Part shown: positions 1 to 19,902 of the stretch, piece by piece
Position numbering within the stretch: the first letter of the stretch is position 1
Layout of the letters: every line of letters begins with the position of its first letter
Virus record (IMG/VR): IMGVR_UViG_3300044491_001198
Coordinates: 1 to 21,313 of that record
Length of the DNA stretch: 21,313 nucleotides
Source of the DNA: a virus
Reading direction: 5' to 3' (one strand)
Notes under the pieces: model-generated
What the model saw: the letters and a program-made list of their open reading frames with translations, nothing else
Told to the model about the DNA's origin: nothing
Database searches by the model: none
Translations under genes and position numbers: made by a program

Positions 1-2060
1 ATTAAATATTCCGTGGAGTCGAACTCCAAATTATCAGTTGAAGTATCACCAAATTGACTTGGTAGTGATGTTGATGATGTTACACCAGTCGAAGGTGTGC
101 TATCTAAACTTGATGAATATGAACCACTCAATGTTGTTGAATTTGCAACATACAATTGACCACCGACTGCATTTACACTTTCTTTCTCGAACGTAGTAGT
201 TGCGAGTGTACCTCTAATCTTTACATTAGCAAACTCAGCAATACCAGTTTCATCTATAATCCAACCCTTGTTGTCTGGAATATAATCTCGTGTTTTGATT
301 TTACCAGTTGAGTTTATCTCTAAGTTATCACTAAAGATTGAACCAGTATCAACTCCCCAACCACCAATGGATGCTGATACGAATCTTGCGAAACCATCGG
401 ACTTAATAGATGATGATGAGTTGGTATCAGTTGATGGTGACCCATCTATTAGTGCTGGGGTTCTGATATTGTTAACACTCAAGTCAGCATCAATTACAGC
501 ATCAGCTCCAATGAACAATAGATTATTAGCAGGGTCTAAGTGGAATAGTGATGAACTTATTTCGATGTTACCATCAGAACCACTAATGAATTGAGTATTT
601 TCAGTACCTATGAAGAACTTATCAGTTTTGACATCCAACAACCCACCATCGTGAGTTGTGAATATGAGGTGTCTATCATCGTTATCACCAACGAATTGCA
701 TACCAACACCTTGTAGGACATCAGCTCCCATTTGAAGACCACCACTACCACTGTAAATGATGAATCCACCAGGACCACTACCATCCGATGCGGATGTTAC
801 GCCTTCATACCCAACCGATTTCATAAAACCAGATGAATGACCACCTATCTCTAAACCACTACCAATAGCATTGGATACAAATATAGAACCAGTGATTATA
901 GATTGGTCACCTCCAATATATACGTTACCACCCTCAAATATAACATCTTCAATTAATATTTCAGTAATTGATACATCGCCATTTTTATTTAAGAACTGTA
1001 TCTTTAAAGTCTTTGGGTCATTTAGTTGTTCGGTTGGTATTGCAACCTTATAAGATATTTCTCTTACATTAGGTACATCAGTATTTGCTAATAATTCAAA
1101 ATCTGCATTTGGCAAACCTTGTGATTTGATAAGAGTGTTTACAGAACTAACGCGGCCCGATACTGGATTTACATTACTTAATGTAATATTTGCAATAGCA
1201 GCTTGGTTTTGTGTAGTTACCAACGAGCCAGTAGATAGATACTTTATATCACCACTAAGTGTACCATCTGAATATTCGTATGTGTGTATTGACCCTCGAT
1301 TCCTATTATCACTTGCAGTAATTGGTAATGATACTCTAAATATGGTATCAGATACAATCTTGGTAATACTTGCGGTAACGTGTGTTGGTTGAGACTGACC
1401 TGTTAATCGTGGGAACAATATCGTTGATGATAAATCCAATTCAAGACTACCACTTATCATCTCACCATTAATTATAGCGGTAGATGCTTCAAATGAAACA
1501 TCATCACCATATATCGATTTCTTATATGTAAATTGTCCGGGTTGAATTGTGCGAGTTAATGAACCACCGGATTGTGGTACATCTGAGAATACTTCTATCG
1601 AAGCAGATACATTTCCCTTTGGTATTTCTTTAAAAACAACCTCAGAAATTGATTTTTTGTTTTTTACAACGTCTACGACACGTGACCATCTAATTTTTTG
1701 GCCATCTGGTAAAGTACCAACAATAATTACTTCACACGGGCCGTCTGGTGTGTTGTATTTTCTATCAGCAATATCATACACCCAAACCGAGATTAGTCGT
1801 GATTGGTCATTATCTTTATACGATGGTATTTCCCAATATACAACATTACCATTTACATCAATAACCTCTACATCAATTTTAGTGTTTGGTTTTAGTGAAC
1901 CAAATCGTGGTCGGATTCTAAATGAATTTTTACCCTCACCAAAGTATTTAGGAAAGTCGTTTAAACCAAAAAACTCTTCGGATAGCGGAGAAGTGTCCTC
2001 TATCGCAACTTTTTCTGATTTAAGATATATCTTTGATTTTCTTCTAAGTTCTAATGCCAT
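1..2060 (-). CDS. Large tail-fibre-like structural protein, N-terminal 686 codons (3' end beyond window)
   Basis: The frame is open from the ATG at 2058-2060 to the left window edge, so the C-terminus is missing. The start follows a strong AGGGAG site and begins MALELRRKSKIYL. The first ~200 residues look like beta-sandwich or fibronectin-like domains. The middle (~410-450) has the glycine/serine-rich SVGYEGVTSASDGSG stretch seen in large phage tail proteins. Residues ~600-640 carry GIAEFANVKIRGTL followed by TTTFEKESVNAVGGQ, a module I associate with the distal part of marine phage tail-tip and fibre proteins. There is no signal peptide or membrane segment. It lies directly downstream of the SbcDC-like gene, separated by 16 bases. 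A virion role in tail tip or host recognition is inferred from motifs and from the tail genes elsewhere in the window; the exact T4 counterpart is not clear. Confidence 0.8.
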   Translation of the reverse strand, partial: MALELRRKSKIYLKSEKVAIEDTSPLSEEFFGLNDFPKYFGEGKNSFRIRPRFGSLKPNTKIDVEVIDVNGNVVYWEIPSYKDNDQSRLISVWVYDIADRKYNTPDGPCEVIIVGTLPDGQKIRWSRVVDVVKNKKSISEVVFKEIPKGNVSASIEVFSDVPQSGGSLTRTIQPGQFTYKKSIYGDDVSFEASTAIINGEMISGSLELDLSSTILFPRLTGQSQPTHVTASITKIVSDTIFRVSLPITASDNRNRGSIHTYEYSDGTLSGDIKYLSTGSLVTTQNQAAIANITLSNVNPVSGRVSSVNTLIKSQGLPNADFELLANTDVPNVREISYKVAIPTEQLNDPKTLKIQFLNKNGDVSITEILIEDVIFEGGNVYIGGDQSIITGSIFVSNAIGSGLEIGGHSSGFMKSVGYEGVTSASDGSGPGGFIIYSGSGGLQMGADVLQGVGMQFVGDNDDRHLIFTTHDGGLLDVKTDKFFIGTENTQFISGSDGNIEISSSLFHLDPANNLLFIGADAVIDADLSVNNIRTPALIDGSPSTDTNSSSSIKSDGFARFVSASIGGWGVDTGSIFSDNLEINSTGKIKTRDYIPDNKGWIIDETGIAEFANVKIRGTLATTTFEKESVNAVGGQLYVANSTTLSGSYSSSLDSTPSTGVTSSTSLPSQFGDTSTDNLEFDSTEYL

Positions 2061-2076: not shown

Positions 2077-5000
2077 CTATAAATATGATACTTTAGAGAA
2101 CCCACGAACTTTATTGATATCAATTATCTGGTCTACCATATCTCGCGTCTTGTCAATGTGTGATATCGTAATAATAAAGTCGAATTGTGTCTTTAAGTAA
2201 TCAAATAATAAATATAAAGAATTAAAGTTATCCGTGTCTAATGAACCAAAGCCCTCATCTATTGCGATAAAGTTTGGTCTTGGTAGGTTGGATACGTTAA
2301 TTAGTGCGGTTCTGATTGCAATTGATGATATAAATTTCTCCATACCACTTGTAAGTTCTAATGGCCAATATTCTTCAGTACCATACGCAATGTAGGAGTT
2401 GATATTTTTACCATCGGTATTCAACATAATTTGGAAATCTACGATTGGAGATAATATATTGTTAATCTCAACTTCCAACTTTGGGAGAACATCTGAAATA
2501 AGATTGTATGGGATGCCATCTCTCTTTACACATTTGAGGTAATATTCGTATCCATCAAACCTAATTTCCATATCACGAAGCTTATCAATCGATTGATTTA
2601 CATTCTCAATAGTCTTTTCAGCAACCTTGATATCAGAATTAATTGTCATAATCTCATTAGTCACATCTTCAATATCATCTCGGATTTGGTCTCGTGTGAC
2701 TTTAAAAGATTTTATCTTTTGTTGTATTTCAGCATTATGGCTTACTGCTTGTTCTTGGTCTTTAGCTCTTTGGATTTTCTCCTCAAGTGACTTAATATCC
2801 AAGTCAATGTCTTTTACCAAGGATACACAATAATCATACGACTTACTTGACCTCAACCATTCTTTATCCAATTCAGCTTGTCTACTTAAAAGGTCTTCGT
2901 ACTCTTTGAGTTCTTTTGTAACATCAGACTTATCACGTTCGGTCATCGTGTCCAATCGTTCTGAAACAATTGATGAATATTTCTTACCCAACAACTCAAT
3001 CTCATCTTCAAGACCTTGTGCTTGTTTAGCAAATGGTGTATTCTTATTCTTTACACAATGTTCACAATTATCATCAAATGTTAACGACCCAATACCATCC
3101 AAATGTTTTTTGGCGTGAATCATTTCGGATTCAATTTTATCCAAAGATAATCCAAGTTCATTGAACTTTCTATCCAATGATTTGTATTGGTCGTTCTTTT
3201 CTTGAAGTTCCTTAATATCGTATTTAGATATTTTGGTTGTGATTGACTTTTGTTCAGTCTCAATGTTATGAACTTCTGCAAGATTCAATGCACATTCACT
3301 ATCTTGTCTCTTACGTTCTTTTTGTAAAGATTGTAGTTGAACTTCCAAATCGGATACATCACCCAAATCCTCAACTGATTTGAGACTACCCATCTCAAAT
3401 TCAATTTTAGTGTTTACCACATCACGTTTAGACTCTAACTCAACCTTTCTATCTTGTAGAGTGGTGAGAGACCCTGTAATCGATGTGAGTGTATCTTCTG
3501 CCTCTGCAAGTTGTGTTGGTAGGTCTTGATTTTTATAATCTTTTAAAAGAGCTGATAGTTCTTTAATCTCCTCACTTGCAATTTGGTAGAGATTCTCGAA
3601 GACATCCATATCGAGGAATTGTGCGAGCAACTCCTTACGTTCCTTTTGTGATTTCTCGATGAATCCACTATTGTTTGATTGGGTTGACATCGCAGTAAGT
3701 ACGAAGTCATCGTATGTTCCAACATATTCTCTAATAATTGCGTTTGTTTCTCTACGTTGTTCACCATTAAGAGATTCTACTTGACCATCTACCATACGAT
3801 AGAAGTTAGTGTCTACTTTTACAGTACCCCGCTTAGGTGACTTCTTAGCACTTCTCTCAATAGTGTATTCTACACCATTTAAATCAAATGTGAACTTACA
3901 ATCAAAAGACATCTTTGAGTAATTTAACACATCCTCCGCTTTTGAGGTTCTTGAACATTTATCAAATATACAAAACGAAAGAGCATCCCATAGGGTTGAC
4001 TTACCACTTGCGTTTGGAGCAAAGATACCATATGCTCCTTTCATTTGACTAAAGTCTATGACATTGTTAGTACCATACGAGAACATATTTGAGAATTCAA
4101 ACACCTTTGGTATCCAAGTTGAGTTGACAATTGCTCTCGTTGTTCCGAGTTTTGAATTGATATCATTGTTAATACCTTTAACAACTTTAAGTTGCTCCTC
4201 GGTGAGATGTTCCGTGTCATTTAAGAATTCCTCAATCAGTTTGTTTTGGAAAGCGGTGTCGCGGACATTCTGAAGAATAATCTTTTCGTGTTCACTACCA
4301 TCTTTACGGGTGATAACTTTTTGTATGGTTAATTCTTGAACCTTTCGACCTTTCTTTAGGTCAGCAATAATCGCGTTAAGTTCAGATGCCTTCGTGTCCT
4401 TTACACGAACTCTCATTCGTGGTTTTAAAGGAATTGGTATGTTAGAAACAATCTTACCTTCTTCTATATCTATTGTAACATATCCATAATCGTTTGGAAT
4501 GTTTACAAATTTATTTTTACAAGATTGGACATCCCATACTAAAATACCGTGGTTAGGGTATTTTGCTTCTCCGTGATTCTGAACGATTAATGAGCCGGGA
4601 TACTTGATAGTCTCCACACCTTGTACTGGATTATTTGGTTTATGAATGTCACCCAACATCACCATATCATACCCATCAAAGTTTCCTACATTTATGTTTT
4701 TGTTCTCAATAGCGAATCCGTGTTCAGTCTCAATCTTATCAACCGGTCCGTGGAATACCCCAATTTTTACATCACCACTATAATCACTTGCGGGTGGAAA
4801 TCCTGGCGACTTATCCCATACCGATTGATGAACTATTGTGAGGTCACCCAATGACCAAGCACCTGTATCTTTTAGGTAGAATAGGTTTGGATGTTTCAAT
4901 GCGTTAATAATTGGTGACAATGCATCCAACCTTGACGTATTGTTTAGATTAGCATCATGGTTACCAGGAATGACAATTGTTGGTAGTAAGTCTGCTAATC

Positions 5001-5244
5001 GAGTAAAGAACTCTTGAGTCAAGTCTACCACTTCGGGTGACATATCAGTCTTAGCATGAACAATGTCACCAGCAATGTATATGATGTCATTTTCATCCAT
5101 TGTGGATAGGATATACCCATAGAGGTGGGAAAATACCTCACGGTATTCTTTATGTCTCTTGAGGTTTCTTATATGTACATCTGCGATATGATAAACTTTG
5201 TTTACCTTTTCTATACCGACTTTTATTTTCTTGAGTTTTTTCAT
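2077..5244 (-). CDS. Fused SbcD/Mre11 (gp47-like) nuclease and SbcC/Rad50 (gp46-like) ATPase
   Basis: This 1055-residue protein combines two recombination subunits that T4 encodes separately. Residues 1-~390 are a calcineurin-type nuclease: D22-x-H24, G59-D60, GNHD at 94-97, H165 and GDIH at 198-201 are the expected metal-binding motifs. The ATPase follows: a Walker A-like loop APNASGKS at 409-416, long coiled coils, a zinc-hook C727-E-H-C730, then coiled coil again, the ABC signature TSGMEK around 966-969, and Walker B FIAIDEGFGSLD with D996/E997. The complex should process double-strand ends for strand invasion and recombination-dependent replication in the cytoplasm. All motif sets are present, so both halves look functional. 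The first Walker A glycine is alanine (A409). The start overlaps the primase stop by four bases (ATGA), suggesting translational coupling. Confidence 0.93.
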   Translation of the reverse strand: MKKLKKIKVGIEKVNKVYHIADVHIRNLKRHKEYREVFSHLYGYILSTMDENDIIYIAGDIVHAKTDMSPEVVDLTQEFFTRLADLLPTIVIPGNHDANLNNTSRLDALSPIINALKHPNLFYLKDTGAWSLGDLTIVHQSVWDKSPGFPPASDYSGDVKIGVFHGPVDKIETEHGFAIENKNINVGNFDGYDMVMLGDIHKPNNPVQGVETIKYPGSLIVQNHGEAKYPNHGILVWDVQSCKNKFVNIPNDYGYVTIDIEEGKIVSNIPIPLKPRMRVRVKDTKASELNAIIADLKKGRKVQELTIQKVITRKDGSEHEKIILQNVRDTAFQNKLIEEFLNDTEHLTEEQLKVVKGINNDINSKLGTTRAIVNSTWIPKVFEFSNMFSYGTNNVIDFSQMKGAYGIFAPNASGKSTLWDALSFCIFDKCSRTSKAEDVLNYSKMSFDCKFTFDLNGVEYTIERSAKKSPKRGTVKVDTNFYRMVDGQVESLNGEQRRETNAIIREYVGTYDDFVLTAMSTQSNNSGFIEKSQKERKELLAQFLDMDVFENLYQIASEEIKELSALLKDYKNQDLPTQLAEAEDTLTSITGSLTTLQDRKVELESKRDVVNTKIEFEMGSLKSVEDLGDVSDLEVQLQSLQKERKRQDSECALNLAEVHNIETEQKSITTKISKYDIKELQEKNDQYKSLDRKFNELGLSLDKIESEMIHAKKHLDGIGSLTFDDNCEHCVKNKNTPFAKQAQGLEDEIELLGKKYSSIVSERLDTMTERDKSDVTKELKEYEDLLSRQAELDKEWLRSSKSYDYCVSLVKDIDLDIKSLEEKIQRAKDQEQAVSHNAEIQQKIKSFKVTRDQIRDDIEDVTNEIMTINSDIKVAEKTIENVNQSIDKLRDMEIRFDGYEYYLKCVKRDGIPYNLISDVLPKLEVEINNILSPIVDFQIMLNTDGKNINSYIAYGTEEYWPLELTSGMEKFISSIAIRTALINVSNLPRPNFIAIDEGFGSLDTDNFNSLYLLFDYLKTQFDFIITISHIDKTRDMVDQIIDINKVRGFSKVSYL

Positions 5245-6632: not shown

Positions 6633-8114
6633 TTAGTCTATATCAAATTTAACATTGACAGTTACGTCAACATCTCTTCTTTTCTTGAGTGGTGACCCTA
6701 ATTTACCAATCGCAAGTAAGTCACCAGTATCATTGTATAATCCAATTTGAGTGATGTATGGTCTGAAATCAGAACCTGTAACCATATTTTGTAGTCTTGG
6801 GTCGGTGTCGGTAGAATCAATTCTTAGAGATGGGTTTGATGATACATTGTATTCATTTCGTTTTATCTCACATAGGATTGATACTTCCTCTATTTGCTTA
6901 GTAGCACGATATTTTAATTCATAGTCTCTATTGGTGTAGTTCCAATTACCATTACCCAAAAATAGATTTTGATATCTGAATCGTGGGTCTGATGTTATAA
7001 TCATACCTTGCTTATAAAATACATAGCCTACTTCTTTTCGTTGAAGAGAAGAACCACTTGGCGAATTATCGGCTAAGGATGAAATCATATCGGATGATAA
7101 GCGCGTTCTATGAATTCTGAATTGAGACATTGAACCACTAAAGTTACCCCCAACAGTTTCTACATTTCTACTACCAATGAGTATATCACGATTATTGGTC
7201 ACCGAACCTCTAAATGAATATGATGACGTAATTTCATTTACAGTATCCACATATAATGATATATTATCACCAACCTTATTTAGTACATAGTGGTGTGGTT
7301 GCCCATCGTTAAAAGGGCTTGAAGAGGATACATTTAGTACTGATTTACCATCAGATGCTTTAACAAATATATGACCCGGACTTGTAGGGTGTAGTTCGGT
7401 ATAGAATGATATATCAAATGGATATTGACCAACACCATTCGACCTAACTTGCTCTAACCCAGCATCATCAATATATGTTTCAGTATTTTTCTTCTGAACT
7501 AAACTTTGGATTTGTCTACCTGCTAATGATTGTGATGGTGGTATATTTGCCCAAAATGAAACTGACCAATCATCATTCTTGTTTAATACATTGAAGTGTT
7601 CTTGGTGTCTAATCTGAATACTTCGGGTTTGTTCAAACAAATAAGAATTACCGATGCCCAATGTTGGGTTTGTTGATATTGATGAGTTTGAAGATAATAC
7701 CCCAGTTCCTGGCGGCGTAGGTGCTATTGAAACGGCAGCAGTACCACTTAGTGCTAAATTTAAGGTAACACCAGGATTAACTTGATGGATACCATCTATT
7801 TTAATTAACCCATTAACTAATGTAGCAGTCAAGCTGGTTGTGGCACCATCAGAGTAAAATTCAGACGGGCCAGTTGTTGATACTGGTGTAACTGGAGTTC
7901 CACCGTTTACAGTGTATGTTATTCCACTTATATCGTTTATTACATAGTCGTCATTCGGGTGTATATAAAATGTAAGATACAATATTGTACCATCGATACT
8001 ACTCGTTATCGACTTTGTAACCATTGGACCACCGAATGGGCTAGTGGTAGACCTTACTATGGTATTGGCTAGAAGATTATTTGCTTCTGAAATATTTATT
8101 TTAAATTCCGCCAT
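6633..8114 (-). CDS. Tail/baseplate structural protein with LamG-like domain and shared C-terminal module
   Basis: A 493-residue protein. Residues ~30-140 look like an Ig-like or other beta-sandwich domain rich in Thr, Ser and Gly. Residues ~150-347 resemble a LamG/concanavalin-type domain: NSYLFEQTRSIQI, then DDWSVSFWANIPPSQS, PHHYVLNK, SLYVDT and a GSMSQFRIH strand near the end. Residues ~360-400 contain VGYVFYKQGMIITSD and LFLGNGNWNY, a block familiar from phage structural proteins. The last ~90 residues (PYITQIGLYNDTGDLLAIGKL) match the C-terminus of the 412-residue protein encoded at 8693-9931. Its ATG overlaps the upstream stop (TAATG), with AGGA seven bases before. It is most likely an exposed tail or baseplate decoration that binds a surface glycan; this role is inferred from the fold. 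Confidence 0.75.
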   Translation of the reverse strand: MAEFKINISEANNLLANTIVRSTTSPFGGPMVTKSITSSIDGTILYLTFYIHPNDDYVINDISGITYTVNGGTPVTPVSTTGPSEFYSDGATTSLTATLVNGLIKIDGIHQVNPGVTLNLALSGTAAVSIAPTPPGTGVLSSNSSISTNPTLGIGNSYLFEQTRSIQIRHQEHFNVLNKNDDWSVSFWANIPPSQSLAGRQIQSLVQKKNTETYIDDAGLEQVRSNGVGQYPFDISFYTELHPTSPGHIFVKASDGKSVLNVSSSSPFNDGQPHHYVLNKVGDNISLYVDTVNEITSSYSFRGSVTNNRDILIGSRNVETVGGNFSGSMSQFRIHRTRLSSDMISSLADNSPSGSSLQRKEVGYVFYKQGMIITSDPRFRYQNLFLGNGNWNYTNRDYELKYRATKQIEEVSILCEIKRNEYNVSSNPSLRIDSTDTDPRLQNMVTGSDFRPYITQIGLYNDTGDLLAIGKLGSPLKKRRDVDVTVNVKFDID

Positions 8115-8680
8115 TAGATAATCCTATTTTGATAGTTAGACTTATCTGAAGTATCTGATTCAAAATCTAAATAAACTAAAGTGTCTGATGGTTTGGTGTA
8201 TACTGACCCGGTTTGTTCACTTGCAATTAGTAATCCATATTCATCATCAACCTTTTGGTCGTATAGATGTATAGATGATGATGGGTAATGTGAGTTATCA
8301 GTTACAAATACCGAACCCGGCTTTATACCATTGCCAAATTTGTTTTGTGGGATAGACACTACCGATGCGGTATCATATAATTTTATATCACTTCTTCTTT
8401 TAAAGAATGTTGAGTTAATTGAATTCCAAATAATGTATTGTGGTATTGAGTTTAACTCACGAGTTATACCACCAGATGATGTTAGAAACGTATCAACACC
8501 AATCTCGCCTGAAACTGATGTTGATACCTCTGTTAAAATACCATTGTCGGATATACCTCTGAGAACGGAAATCTCGAACGATGATGAGTGGTTTACGTTT
8601 GTAACCTCATATCGTTTATGTGCCTTGAAGGGTCTTGATTGGACACCCCCATTGAAGATTTTTTTGAATACTATTCCCAT
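8114..8680 (-). CDS. Phage structural protein, 188 residues, possibly a split partner of the next gene
   Basis: No enzyme motif is visible. Residues ~15-35 (SRPFKAHKRYEVTN) and ~110-130 (SIPQNKFGNGIKPGSVFV), plus LYDQKVDDEYGLL at ~139-151, resemble a conserved segment found in large tail proteins of T4-like marine phages. The last ~25 residues (LVYLDFESDTSDKSNYQNR) look like the opening strand of a LamG-like domain, yet the frame stops there. The rest of such a domain appears in the following gene, which starts at the overlapping TAATG. The start is preceded only by weak AAAGA. Virion role inferred from context and motifs; the precise position in the tail is unknown. Confidence 0.68.
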   Translation of the reverse strand: MGIVFKKIFNGGVQSRPFKAHKRYEVTNVNHSSSFEISVLRGISDNGILTEVSTSVSGEIGVDTFLTSSGGITRELNSIPQYIIWNSINSTFFKRRSDIKLYDTASVVSIPQNKFGNGIKPGSVFVTDNSHYPSSSIHLYDQKVDDEYGLLIASEQTGSVYTKPSDTLVYLDFESDTSDKSNYQNRII

Positions 8681-8692
8681 TGGTTACCATCT

Positions 8693-9931
8693 TTAGAAGT
8701 CGAGCTTAACCTTAATTAAAATCTCATTAGAGAATGATTTCAATAGAGGTTTAGACAACTTAGCAATTGCTAAAAGTTCGTTATCGTTATTGTAAAGACC
8801 AACAGTTGTAATATATGACTTAGGGTCACCTACAAAAGTTTGTTGGTTTAATTTACCATTTGAACCAGTAACATAAGATGGGTTGTTTGAGAAGTTATAT
8901 TCTGCATTCTTAGCTCTTACAAAGAAGAATGTTGATTTTACTTCCTCTTCACTTCTTGCTTGGAATCCGTTTGCCGAATCTTCAAATGCAGCACCACTAA
9001 TTGCGGTAAACAGCTTTCCGTGGTTTTGTGCATCGGTATTTGTTGTTCTTATAGTTCCTAATGAAGCAGAAGCGTCAAGACCGGCCGCACCTAATACAAT
9101 GATTCCAAATTGTGGGTATACTGCGCCGAATACTTTAGTTTCACTGTGAACACCATTAAGTAGTGAGCCGGATACCACATTGTATACGTTTTTGTTTGAG
9201 TTACCCAATTGATTAGTATCACCACTATTATCAACCAATCTAAGTGTTTCACCCGTTGAACCGGATAATACCAACTCCCAATTACCAGGGTCTAACTTAT
9301 CTTTGATACGTGCTCTATTGATTGAGATTACGTACACATCATCTTGCGCTACATCACCAAAGGTAAATGTTGTTTGAGATGCTGGAAGAAGAACTTGTTG
9401 GAATTGTGAGTAGATTGCATTTGATGGTGAGTCTTCATTTGTACCTAAAGAACCACTACCAGCGTAGTGTCCATACGCAATTGAGAATTGAGCTTCTTTA
9501 GTCGAATCAGCTGGGTTACCATTGTAAATCTCATAGTAATAACCCTTTTGAGTTGTAGATTGAAATGATGATGTAAAGAATGTTGTTAACTCACCCACAT
9601 TACCACTCCACAAACCACGAGTAACTCGTTGAGTGTTTCCTTCTACTACATCTTCTACTGTAAATGCAGTGTATACTTTACCACTACCATAATCATACGC
9701 ACCTGCTGGAATTAATGGAGTTGCATCTTGAGAAACATCATTTGCTGAAAGTTCACTAACTGATAACGAATTGTTTAGTGCGTTTAGAATTGCGGACCCA
9801 CCAGTGTTACCACCACCCGTAGGGCCAGTAGGACCACCAGTGTTTCCTCCGGGAGGAGTTCCACCAGGGTTACCAGAGTTACCACCCCCACCTAATCCGA
9901 AGCCACCGCCACCTATACCTTGTATTGCCAT
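8693..9931 (-). CDS. Tail structural protein with glycine/proline-rich N-terminus
   Basis: A 412-residue protein. Residues 5-45 are almost only Gly, Pro, Asn and Thr, partly collagen-like, suggesting a flexible linker or a trimeric fibre segment. Residues ~70-325 are a beta-rich region with many Ser, Thr, Gly and Tyr residues and no recognisable enzyme motif. The C-terminus (~327-412; NAEYNFSNNPSY, then SYITTVGLYNNDNELLAIAKL and a KVKLDF end) is closely similar to the C-terminus of the 493-residue protein at 6633-8114, so the two share a module. A clear AGAAGGA lies six bases before the ATG. No cysteine is present, which fits an intracellularly assembled virion protein. Function beyond structure or host contact cannot be told. 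Confidence 0.75.
   Translation of the reverse strand: MAIQGIGGGGFGLGGGGNSGNPGGTPPGGNTGGPTGPTGGGNTGGSAILNALNNSLSVSELSANDVSQDATPLIPAGAYDYGSGKVYTAFTVEDVVEGNTQRVTRGLWSGNVGELTTFFTSSFQSTTQKGYYYEIYNGNPADSTKEAQFSIAYGHYAGSGSLGTNEDSPSNAIYSQFQQVLLPASQTTFTFGDVAQDDVYVISINRARIKDKLDPGNWELVLSGSTGETLRLVDNSGDTNQLGNSNKNVYNVVSGSLLNGVHSETKVFGAVYPQFGIIVLGAAGLDASASLGTIRTTNTDAQNHGKLFTAISGAAFEDSANGFQARSEEEVKSTFFFVRAKNAEYNFSNNPSYVTGSNGKLNQQTFVGDPKSYITTVGLYNNDNELLAIAKLSKPLLKSFSNEILIKVKLDF
9797..9919 (-). repeat. Low-complexity Gly/Pro-rich coding repeat
   Basis: This stretch encodes residues 5-45 of the 412-residue tail protein. It is built from GGGG, GNPGG and TPPGG-like units and is much richer in G and C than its surroundings. 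On the opposite strand it gives a proline-rich open frame that is only a mirror of this composition. Confidence 0.8.
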
Positions 9932-9944
9932 CTTATATCCTTCT

Positions 9945-10613
9945 TTAGTTTGCGACTACCACAACATTAGTTTGTGTATCAGTTGCAACATTAACCGTTA
10001 CATCAATCTCAGTTCTACCACCAGTCTCATTACCTATGATAATAATACGAGTTGAAATTACAGTATCATTTGGTAGGTTAGCTGCAGATACAAACGTAAA
10101 TTGGTTTTTACCAACAACAGTTTGTGATTGTGCGGTGTTGTATGAACCAACATTAACGATTGGAGTTACATTACCAGGAACACCAGGATTACCAGTAATA
10201 GTACCAGCGTCACTGTTAAGTAGAATTGCCGTGTATCCCAAACTCTCGTTACCACCATTTTTAGTAGTTACTGCTATTAATGAATTGTTTGCACCCTCAT
10301 CTAATGTTAGTGAGGATGGTGAAACTGAAATATATGGTAACCGTGTAGTTGATTTTGGAAGTGATAACAATTTGTATTTCATTGCATAATTCTCATCCGT
10401 GATTGCTTCAATCACTGGCATATTCTCAATGACGATACCATAATAGTCAGAACCCAGCGAGTGTGCTGGATTCCAAAGTTCGTAATCTACCTCATCATCT
10501 GCTAATGCAAATTGAGTGATTTGAAATTTGTCACGGCCTTGTGCTAATAACTCTCTACCTTTTTTGGTGAGAATCGCATCTACCGTTACCGATGAATTAT
10601 CTAAAAATCCCAT
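9945..10613 (-). CDS. Tail structural protein with conserved N-terminal phage domain and Ig-like C-terminus
   Basis: The 222-residue protein starts with MGFLDNSSVTVDAILTKKGR, then ELLAQG and FQITQFALADDEVDYELW. This ~90-residue block is a conserved element I recognise from structural proteins of T4-like marine phages. Residues ~94-215 look like a bacterial Ig-like (Big) domain: alternating beta strands beginning ISVSPSSLTLDEGAN and ending EIDVTVNV. Ig-like domains on virions often bind carbohydrate weakly and help surface attachment. AGGA lies seven bases before the ATG. It is followed 13 bases later by the glycine-rich tail gene. Placement on the baseplate or tail is inferred from neighbours. 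Confidence 0.75.
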   Translation of the reverse strand: MGFLDNSSVTVDAILTKKGRELLAQGRDKFQITQFALADDEVDYELWNPAHSLGSDYYGIVIENMPVIEAITDENYAMKYKLLSLPKSTTRLPYISVSPSSLTLDEGANNSLIAVTTKNGGNESLGYTAILLNSDAGTITGNPGVPGNVTPIVNVGSYNTAQSQTVVGKNQFTFVSAANLPNDTVISTRIIIIGNETGGRTEIDVTVNVATDTQTNVVVVAN

Positions 10614-17544: not shown

Positions 17545-19458
17545 TTAAAATAATGATACTACTCTACCCTTGATGTCTACATCAGGATATTTTACCTCAA
17601 AACAAGTTGGGTCTTTTGGTGGGTATACAATCCCATCGCGAGTCGCGTTCTTAATTCCATATTTATTTGATGAGTAATTACCACCAGATTTGTTTACAAT
17701 TTGAAGACCACCTACTCCATCTCTATCAGGCCTAACTACCGACTGTACACCATCCACCTTGTCTAATAAAACATAAACATCAGTTAAAACGATTGGCTTA
17801 TTGATTCCCATCCTATCGATGTTAAAGTATTTTTTAAGAGCGTCAATACATTTAAGCAATACTTCATTAGAGTTATAATTTGGAAGAACAATAATGTCAA
17901 ACTCAACACCAATGTTTACAATGTATGCATTCTTAATATTTACCGCATCAGTTAAGATACGATAATACGATAAGTAGTTTTGTAAGTTTTGTTTTGTTGC
18001 TGGGTTTAGTTCAGTTAATTTTTTATTAAAATCATACCCTAATGTGTAGAAGTTGATAGCCAATGGATTTGGAATTGGGTCTGGCCCATCATCCAATAAA
18101 GTGTTGATTTGAAAGTCTGGAGCAACATATGCTTTTGCTACCGAACCAAATTGTGGTGGTAATGCGTATGCTCTCAACAAATAGTCTTCACGAGTCACTG
18201 CTCTATTTTGTGCTCTAAAATACGCTACTGCATTATTACGAACTTCTTCAAACTCTTCTTCGTATGCACCACCACCCGCGGCAACTTCATTTGTAACTGC
18301 GATTGAGTTTTGTACAACATTAACAACATCACTTACTAATGCTGATGTGTCAGTTTCGATTACACGTTCTATCAACTCAGTAAGGTCTGCCGATTGTACA
18401 TTATCATCCACACCATTCCCAACTCTATACTTAACAGTTAAAGTTGTATTTGATGGTGCTACTCCATATGTCTTTGCATACATAAAGTTCGATGGGTCAA
18501 TACCTTGGTCAAGGTCTCCACTTGCTGGATATAATGCCGAGCCAACGTTATCTGGATTTGGTAAAATTTCTTCATCGGCATTTGATGATACACCTGCACC
18601 AAACTGAATCTCAATCTCACCATCATCCGTGATGCGAGTTACATATCGTTTTGGGACTCTTTTTAGTTTAAGTAAAGCAGGTGTTTCATTAGCATACCCT
18701 GACATTGCTATTGAGTAGTCGGTTGTATTTGGTAACTCTTCAAACACAGTATCCTGTGCTAAGTATTCTACCTTCGTCCACTCGTCATTATCATCATCTA
18801 AGATTTCTATAACATCAATCAAACCCTCATCATCGGATAATCGTATCTTGTCGTATGGTTTTGGTGATTCGAAATCAAAGGTTGTTTCTTTCTCTTTACC
18901 ACTAACGGCTTTTACATATTTTTTAAGTAGATAGTATACCGGCTCATCAGTAGTCTCATCAATTTGATAAACTGAAACTTCCGTGGGGTCAAATGATGAT
19001 GAGAATCCAAATCTAACTTTATTGATTGTTGTGAATTCAACATCTGAGTTTGTAGATGACCCGACTATCATACCCTCTTTTAAAGTTAATGCGTAATCAA
19101 AGTTTGGCTTTACATTATCACCACTTCCTTTAGCGGGAACTAATTGGTAGACTGTTAGAGTTGTTGTAGCAGGAACATATAACTTTGGTTTGTATCCGAA
19201 CGACTGTGCGAGTGTAAATACATTTGACTTTTCTTGTGCTTCTTCTAAGATAGATTCTCTTAACTGAACATCGGTGTAGTATGATAATACATCACCTACG
19301 TATGAAGCCATTTCCATAAACATCATACCCGGCGATGACTCGTTAAAGTCATTGTAGGTATTTGGGAAATAGTTTTTAGTAAAGTCAATTAGGTTCTTAC
19401 GAATATCACCGAAATCCCTACCAACTAAGTTTACATCTTTTTTTACTTTATCTGCCAT
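17545..19458 (-). CDS. 6: Baseplate wedge protein gp6-like (baseplate J family)
   Basis: 637 residues, close to T4 gp6 (660). Early residues RKNLIDFTKNYFPNTYNDFN and SPGMMFMEMASYVGDVLSYY are the hallmark N-terminus. The middle has IEIQFGAGVSSNADEEILPN and the late region has FRAQNRAVTREDYLLRAYAL and PPQFGSVAKAYV, the core of the baseplate J/gp6 family. Gp6 dimers form the inner ring of baseplate wedges and control sheath contraction. The gene follows gp25 as in T4-like order, with GAGGA before the ATG and a nine-base gap. No sign of truncation. Confidence 0.93.
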   Translation of the reverse strand: MADKVKKDVNLVGRDFGDIRKNLIDFTKNYFPNTYNDFNESSPGMMFMEMASYVGDVLSYYTDVQLRESILEEAQEKSNVFTLAQSFGYKPKLYVPATTTLTVYQLVPAKGSGDNVKPNFDYALTLKEGMIVGSSTNSDVEFTTINKVRFGFSSSFDPTEVSVYQIDETTDEPVYYLLKKYVKAVSGKEKETTFDFESPKPYDKIRLSDDEGLIDVIEILDDDNDEWTKVEYLAQDTVFEELPNTTDYSIAMSGYANETPALLKLKRVPKRYVTRITDDGEIEIQFGAGVSSNADEEILPNPDNVGSALYPASGDLDQGIDPSNFMYAKTYGVAPSNTTLTVKYRVGNGVDDNVQSADLTELIERVIETDTSALVSDVVNVVQNSIAVTNEVAAGGGAYEEEFEEVRNNAVAYFRAQNRAVTREDYLLRAYALPPQFGSVAKAYVAPDFQINTLLDDGPDPIPNPLAINFYTLGYDFNKKLTELNPATKQNLQNYLSYYRILTDAVNIKNAYIVNIGVEFDIIVLPNYNSNEVLLKCIDALKKYFNIDRMGINKPIVLTDVYVLLDKVDGVQSVVRPDRDGVGGLQIVNKSGGNYSSNKYGIKNATRDGIVYPPKDPTCFEVKYPDVDIKGRVVSLF

Positions 19459-19467
19459 CTTCTATCC

Positions 19468-19902
19468 TCAGACAATAGAAACATTACCTTGTTCGGTAAC
19501 GAGTATTGTTATTTGTGTATTTGCACCATTCTCAGTAACTCTAACTCTCAATGTGATTGATACTTTATTATTATCTTCCTCAGCATCTACATTCACATCA
19601 TCCACTATAATATAAGGTAACCAAAATTCAATATCACCTCTAATTGAATCTTCTAATTCAACATTTATGTTTGCTGATATTTGTTCGAATAGTAATGAGA
19701 AAATGTCCGAGCCAAATAATGGTTGGAATGGCCTCTCACCCTTACGAGTCAGTAATAGGTTTTTAAGATTGGATAATGCTTGGTCCTCAGTAGTATAAGA
19801 CAATTGAAATATAGGGTCACCACCTAATGGTAACTTTACACCAATAGCCTTATTTGGTTTAAGGTCTAATGGATTTCTCTTATACTCCTTACGACTTGGC
19901 AT
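19468..19902 (-). CDS. 25: Baseplate wedge protein gp25-like
   Basis: 144 residues, near the 132 of T4 gp25. The conserved block is present: DQALSNLKNLLLTRKGERPF then QPLFGSDIFSLLFEQ, followed by a polar beta-rich C-terminus (VDDVNVDAEEDNNKVSITLRV). Gp25 joins the wedge inner ring to the sheath and, with gp6, triggers contraction; related proteins are found in all contractile injection machines. The start overlaps the upstream stop (TAATG) with AAGGTG upstream. The old 'lysozyme' label for this family is not supported by any catalytic motif. Confidence 0.93.
   Translation of the reverse strand: MPSRKEYKRNPLDLKPNKAIGVKLPLGGDPIFQLSYTTEDQALSNLKNLLLTRKGERPFQPLFGSDIFSLLFEQISANINVELEDSIRGDIEFWLPYIIVDDVNVDAEEDNNKVSITLRVRVTENGANTQITILVTEQGNVSIV

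Follow-up and report, generated by a model that had tools for sequence, protein, structure and literature searches.

The 21,313-base virus record IMGVR_UViG_3300044491_001198 (referred to here as the window) carries two overlapping genes on its minus strand, whose products we call chain 1 and chain 2, and comparison with relatives showed that the two derive from a single gene that broke inside its LamG domain. We consider it fairly probable that this was an adhesin gene broken after the first LamG strand, that the two coupled chains reassemble the domain in trans, and that the new N terminus of chain 2 takes up exchangeable domains. A preliminary description of the window had already noted a LamG-like domain split over two overlapping genes; this observation was confirmed, and the interpretation offered with it is supported overall. 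Two chains completing one fold would, we infer, be the most likely consequence of the break.

Both open reading frames are as first described. Chain 1 has a strand-like end, ...LVYLDFESDTSDKSNYQNRII (the final II had been omitted previously), and chain 2 reaches the remainder of the LamG domain, DDWSVSFWANIP, after 180 residues, ~140 of which form a separate N-terminal domain. The genes do meet at the TAATG reported for them, in which the chain 1 stop codon (8116 to 8114) and the chain 2 start codon (8114 to 8112) overlap by one base. The features of the locus are as follows.

8114 to 8680, minus strand: chain 1, 188 amino acids, homologous to residues 1 to 184 of a fused adhesin.

6633 to 8114, minus strand: chain 2, 493 amino acids, comprising a cassette, the remaining LamG part, and a C-terminal domain.

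8117 to 8200, minus strand: C-terminal tail of chain 1 (residues 161 to 188), homologous to the LamG-opening region in fused relatives.

8153 to 8185, minus strand: core of the proposed donated strand (chain 1 codons 166 to 176, DTLVYLDFESD), strongly conserved in the window's group by the ratio of non-synonymous to synonymous differences (pN/pS).

8122 to 8125, minus strand: AGGA, a Shine-Dalgarno-like motif by sequence reading, 7 bases ahead of the chain 2 start and within the last chain 1 codons.

8112 to 8116, minus strand: TAATG, the chain 1 stop and chain 2 start.

7692 to 8111, minus strand: exchangeable N-terminal cassette (chain 2 residues ~2 to 141), predicted to be all-beta; absent from relative L001 and replaced in L003 and L012.

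7083 to 7592, minus strand: Laminin_G_3 match by Pfam (chain 2 residues 175 to 344), lacking, by fold comparison, the first strand of fused relatives.

6636 to 7066, minus strand: C-terminal part of chain 2 (residues ~350 to 493), of which residues 400 to 492 are related to the end of a neighboring 412-residue protein.

Searches of IMG/VR returned 31 loci with chain 1, 59 with its family alignment (the same contigs plus more distant ones), and 34 with the LamG part of chain 2. The scored set comprised 67 sequences including the window, 47 of them distinct; L090 (a weak partial match) and L108, L111, and L118 (the contig start cuts before the junction) stand outside it. Homologs with both parts in one protein, which the preliminary description had proposed to look for, were found: 39 of the 67 sequences are a fused single gene of 540 to 575 residues (one, L026, is cut by the contig end; it was counted as fused and left out of the LamG tree), and 28 are split (15 of the 47 distinct sequences). 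Residues 1 to 183 of chain 1 aligned with residues 1 to 184 of the fused L054 protein (544 amino acids) at 70% identity, and residues 140 to 493 of chain 2 aligned with its residues 191 to 544 at 66% identity; together, the chains tile L054 with no overlap and a 6-residue gap. When the tails of five split proteins were compared with three fused proteins, none of 1,000 shuffles reached the observed score in 14 of the 15 comparisons, and 5 of 1,000 did so in the remaining one. The tiling and the shuffle scores indicate that the LamG resemblance of both parts is homology rather than chance; the common origin with a single gene and the position of the break are established. A distant single-gene relative, from Microcystis phage Mel-JY01, matched the fused query end to end (27.7% identity) and sits in a similar neighborhood, preceding a GIY-YIG family protein and a primase-like gene.

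We located the break within the LamG fold using profiles and fold matches, the fold match lists comprising at most 50 entries each. The Laminin_G_3 profile (PF13385) matched chain 2 at 44.2 bits, above its curated cutoff of 27.6, and Pfam gave no match on chain 1. In a model of a fused protein, a strand spans residues 168 to 174, whose counterpart in chain 1 is LVYLDF, close to the C-terminal end. The fused model aligned with residues 641 to 846 of the arabinanase AbnA entry 5ho2 (Z, 21.5; 195 residues), whereas chain 2 alone aligned with residues 683 to 846 (Z, 16.1; 158 residues). Likewise, the fused model aligned with residues 875 to 1112 of 1diw (Z, 23.1), whereas chain 2 alone aligned from residue 919 (Z, 16.7), so that the chain 2 alignments start 42 to 44 residues later in both entries. 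A similar shift was seen in phrog_3545, which the fused proteins enter at position 721 (L017) or 740 (L054) and the split chain 2 proteins enter at 784 (window) or 785 (L001). Given these later starts in 5ho2, 1diw, and phrog_3545, the break falls after the first LamG strand as the fused relatives have it, and the stretch with which the fold begins in those relatives is missing from chain 2. Since the split members without a cassette have only 33 (L115) or 46 (L001) residues ahead of a conserved W, chain 2 has little or no space for a first strand of its own.

The strand left behind in chain 1 has been conserved in the window's group. Among seven distinct chain 1 sequences of 188 residues sharing the window's junction type (21 pairs, which are not independent), pN/pS was 0.037 in codons 166 to 176 (88 synonymous and 12 non-synonymous differences) versus 0.181 in codons 1 to 164; when the set was reduced to five lineages, the values were 0.043 and 0.191, respectively. 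Over the whole tail (codons 165 to 188), the ratio was 0.171 in this split group and 0.283 in eight fused relatives. Judged from these codon comparisons, the strand is under purifying selection in the window's group, which excludes decay there; by itself, this result does not specify the binding partner of the strand. Because chain 1 keeps a conserved LamG strand that chain 2 is without, a LamG domain re-formed from two chains is the simplest account of the data.

Several observations nonetheless weigh against assembly in trans. The Laminin_G_3 profile positions are the same in chain 2 and in the fused L017 protein (12 to 150 of 151), and Pfam is thus unable to show the missing strand, since its match begins past that strand whether the protein is fused or split. 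The two models are of moderate quality (mean predicted local distance difference test scores of 58.0 for chain 2 and 68.5 for the fused protein), and even by itself chain 2 is predicted to make up most of the LamG sandwich. Among the fold matches listed for it, the best are the pentraxin-type domains of PAPP-A and PTX3, aligned from near their first residue (7y5n from residue 13 with a Z of 17.6; 8pvq over residues 2 to 185 of 200 with a Z of 16.6), which means that a related fold may be stable alone even if it is without this strand. Codons 166 to 176 are among the most conserved of chain 1, but such conservation is not unique to them, in that 16 of 178 such segments of chain 1 (17 with five lineages), the strand included, have an equally low or lower ratio, nearly all of them in one block near the N terminus. 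The tail ratio over the last 24 codons (0.171) is about that of the body (0.181), and it exceeds that of the body in two other split groups: 0.320 versus 0.115 in the second (one pair, 9 tail changes) and 0.308 versus 0.077 in the third (three pairs, 27 tail changes). Finally, virion protein data were sought in the literature, and none were found. The preliminary description would have yielded to relatives that share the two-gene layout and have a complete LamG fold in chain 2 alone; such relatives exist as regards layout, and the LamG domain of chain 2 alone is without the first strand of its fused relatives, yet may be complete in the manner of a pentraxin-type domain.

The main rival explanation draws on these same observations. 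It holds that the LamG domain of chain 2 works without the strand, in the manner of a pentraxin, and that the chain 1 tail has been kept for another purpose, for example, to dock as a peptide onto some other tail protein or to carry the ribosome-binding site of chain 2. We regard this explanation as unlikely, albeit one to be taken seriously. It would fit the prediction that chain 2 makes up most of the sandwich alone, the pentraxin-type alignments, and the unremarkable or elevated tail ratios, and the AGGA motif does lie within the last chain 1 codons. However, the most constrained codons, 166 to 176, lie 28 to 60 bases upstream of AGGA, and their synonymous sites vary freely (pS, 0.599), so the constraint acts on the protein. 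Moreover, the residues homologous to 166 to 176 in the fused proteins form the strand with which the LamG domain begins.

The other alternatives fare worse. If a strand at the end of the cassette replaced the first LamG strand, chain 2 would be complete and chain 1 an independent protein; short strands are indeed predicted at chain 2 residues 158 to 160 and 166 to 168, but cassette-less members have little space for such a strand, as L115 with its 33 residues illustrates, and we consider this improbable. Slightly less probable still is continued production of a fused protein, with the two chains joined through a programmed frameshift or a bypass of the stop. Stop and start are at most one base apart in all 28 split sequences, but the two junction types described below need opposite shifts (the start is at -1 or +1 relative to the chain 1 end), no slippery heptamer was seen at either junction on reading the sequence, and the fused product would place a cassette inside the LamG domain in 26 of the 28 split members. 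An assembly or sequencing error in an intact gene, conceivable in that the records are metagenome contigs, is made very unlikely by the recurrence of the split, which is seen in 28 of 67 sequences (15 of the 47 distinct ones); the junctions are conserved, and a frameshift error could not create cassettes of ~128 to 237 residues.

Two junction types occur among the split sequences. In type I (19 of 28), the start overlaps the stop as TAATG; in type II (9 of 28), one base separates stop and start. Read from the sequence, the abutting stop and start codons, together with the AGGA of the window, suggest that translation of the two chains is coupled and that they are made in similar amounts. Each junction type occurs with three kinds of chain 2 N terminus: bare (L001 for type I and L115 for type II), with an immunoglobulin (Ig)-like cassette of ~128 to 147 residues, or with an unrelated cassette of ~225 to 237 residues that begins with MAW. 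The 39 fused sequences have no space for a cassette, judged from their length. For the window, a stretch of ~130 Ig-like residues had been proposed at this position; a separate domain is indeed present, but no search confirmed its Ig-like nature, for which there is only the all-beta prediction, of moderate confidence.

The cassettes and the LamG parts of the split proteins give opposite patterns of relatedness. The cassettes of L057 and L058 (type I) are 60 to 61% identical to those of L113 and L119 (type II) and 27 to 35% identical to those of the window, L002, and L005 (type I), whereas their LamG parts show the reverse, with 62 to 65% identity to the window, L002, and L005 and 48 to 50% identity to L113 and L119. 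These identities indicate that cassettes move between phages at this locus. L121 was left out of the identity table for the MAW cassette, its LamG part being without the anchor motif. We also noted that the L121 chain 2 (3257 to 4927) is without ~16 LamG residues (from the SQSIL to the SFW motif) that are present in the other 14 distinct split members; this gap is either a real deletion or an assembly fault. In L113 (5041 to 5748) and L114, an extra 235-residue LamG protein follows chain 2 (its Pfam match was seen for L113), and the L115 endonuclease opens with the same residues, MAITFTNG, as this protein, which looks like a scar of its loss.

The nearest relative of the window is L001. It is 99% identical to the window in chain 1 and 97% identical in the common part of chain 2, and it has no cassette. 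At the DNA level, the two are identical over the 170 bases that lead up to the chain 2 start codon; L001 then lacks the cassette, and a short linker shows 85% identity. Starting within the second LamG strand, identity is 98 to 100% per 100 bases over 800 bases, falling to ~90% near the chain 2 end, and upstream of chain 1 it is 97 to 100% except for one stretch at 83%. L001 and L115 have the split and yet carry no cassette, and other relatives carry a different domain at this position; in a correction to the earlier suggestion of an insertion with a frame break, the ~130-residue domain is not required for the break. Later loss of a cassette in L001 and L115 is possible.

Pattern-based profile scans of IMG/VR, which were not exhaustive (the first of them did not pick up L113 and L114, for example, although both carry a cassette), confirmed cassettes at no other locus, all 13 of 13 and 10 of 10 confirmed loci lying on contigs already in the set; within that scope, they speak against each cassette having been borrowed from another tail gene. 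No match was confirmed with the window's own cassette alone as the query or in cassette searches of phage records, and none of 81 pattern-matching stretches in bacterial genome contigs was confirmed. The window's cassette had no Pfam match, neither cassette had a significant match among PDB sequences, and the fold-search rows for chain 2 leave the cassette uncovered.

To follow the history of the split, we used a tree of the chain 1 body restricted to its first 160 residues, so that the trait itself was not included. Its deepest branches are fused, which, with 39 of the 67 sequences being one gene, bears out the proposal that an older single gene was broken. At least three changes of state are needed (four if junction type is counted), and a single clade of all split members was rejected (P = 0.0015, approximately unbiased test). 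A tree of the LamG part, made by a quick method from 46 of the 47 rows, also needed three changes. The split thus seems to have arisen or spread more than once on these trees; a single split could also have been spread by recombination between phages.

Taken together, these results are consistent with the following sequence of events. An ancestral single-chain tail or baseplate adhesin would have consisted of an N-terminal domain, a LamG domain, and a C-terminal domain. The break would have come immediately past the first beta strand of the LamG domain, with both halves retained as adjacent, translationally coupled genes. The two chains would then assemble, the C-terminal strand of chain 1 completing the LamG sandwich of chain 2 in trans. 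The break would also have created a chain 2 N terminus at a LamG loop, a natural spot to display an extra domain, at which phages gain, lose, and exchange whole domains; the Ig-like one of the window would be a likely host-binding accessory. A role of the locus in host binding is itself something we infer from the lectin-like fold and the position. More tentatively, and with some doubt, we propose that a break inside a beta-sandwich can serve as a stable and reusable docking port, in which two chains re-form the fold and the free N terminus trades domains that the 39 fused chains seen do not have.

The surroundings of the locus are those of a T4-like contractile-tail baseplate. In the window, gp25-type and gp6-type wedge genes are followed by large structural genes, chain 1 and chain 2, an endonuclease gene, a primase-like gene, and a joined SbcD/SbcC-like gene. 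GPW_gp25 matched at 19468 to 19902 (E = 1.3e-13), and the baseplate wedge family phrog_219 matched at 17545 to 19458 (E = 2.6e-25). In 10 of 13 listed loci, relatives of the 222- and 412-residue protein genes (8693 to 10613, minus strand) lie ahead of chain 1 in the same order, and the other 3 loci are cut by the contig start; neither protein was matched significantly by PHROG or Pfam families. Over its last 90 residues, the 412-residue protein (8693 to 9931, minus strand) is related to the chain 2 end (33% identity over 93 columns; E = 2e-13 as a single comparison), by which a C-terminal module is common to these two adjacent tail proteins, and a similar module is present in Flavobacterium phage immuto. 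The joined gene (2077 to 5244, minus strand) encodes 1,055 residues, in which a metallophosphatase (SbcD/gp47-like) is joined to an SbcC/gp46-like ATPase. An open-ended reading frame of 686 residues (3 to 2060, minus strand) had no PHROG match and looks like a structural protein.

LamG domains are familiar from phage structural proteins: phrog_3545, phrog_8510, and baseplate wedge PHROGs such as phrog_13163 belong to the same Laminin_G_3 domain family. In those proteins, some of them named as virion or baseplate proteins, the domain lies within a single chain, whereas here it is cut past its first strand and encoded by two genes. Among the best listed matches of the fused model are the carbohydrate-binding ConA-like domain of AbnA (5hon and 5ho2) and the lectin-like part of clostridial neurotoxin binding regions (Z, 21 to 23), but at ~18% identity this is a resemblance of fold only, and no toxin parts are present here. 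The pentraxin-type domains that head the fold matches listed for chain 2 by itself (Z, 16 to 18) are single-chain and 14 to 16% identical. The closest parallel for assembly in trans is donor-strand complementation in chaperone-usher pili, where a strand of one chain completes the sandwich of another: each Ig-like pilin receives the N-terminal strand of the pilin that follows it in the polymer. In the window, by contrast, the LamG domain would, if our reading is right, take a C-terminal strand from the product of the upstream gene, to which it is covalently joined in relatives.

If the proposed assembly is true, the locus offers an alternative route to a change of host, in which a binding domain is cut into two chains that re-form it and the cut end becomes a socket. 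It may also offer a natural split lectin, and the natural series of fused, split bare, and split proteins with either of two unrelated cassettes could be used to study assembly in trans and the effect of a cassette on binding. Phages change hosts largely through the swapping of tail-tip domains, and in tail fibers, receptor-binding domains are exchanged by recombination at fixed boundaries, usually where an intact chain has its tip. The port of exchange at this locus would instead be a break inside a fold. In the result listings and abstract openings that our literature search covered, we found no account of such a split. LamG domains in phage structural proteins are known, as is strand donation elsewhere; what appears new, as far as we searched, is that a lectin-like fold is divided between two genes and that the cut serves as the site of exchange.
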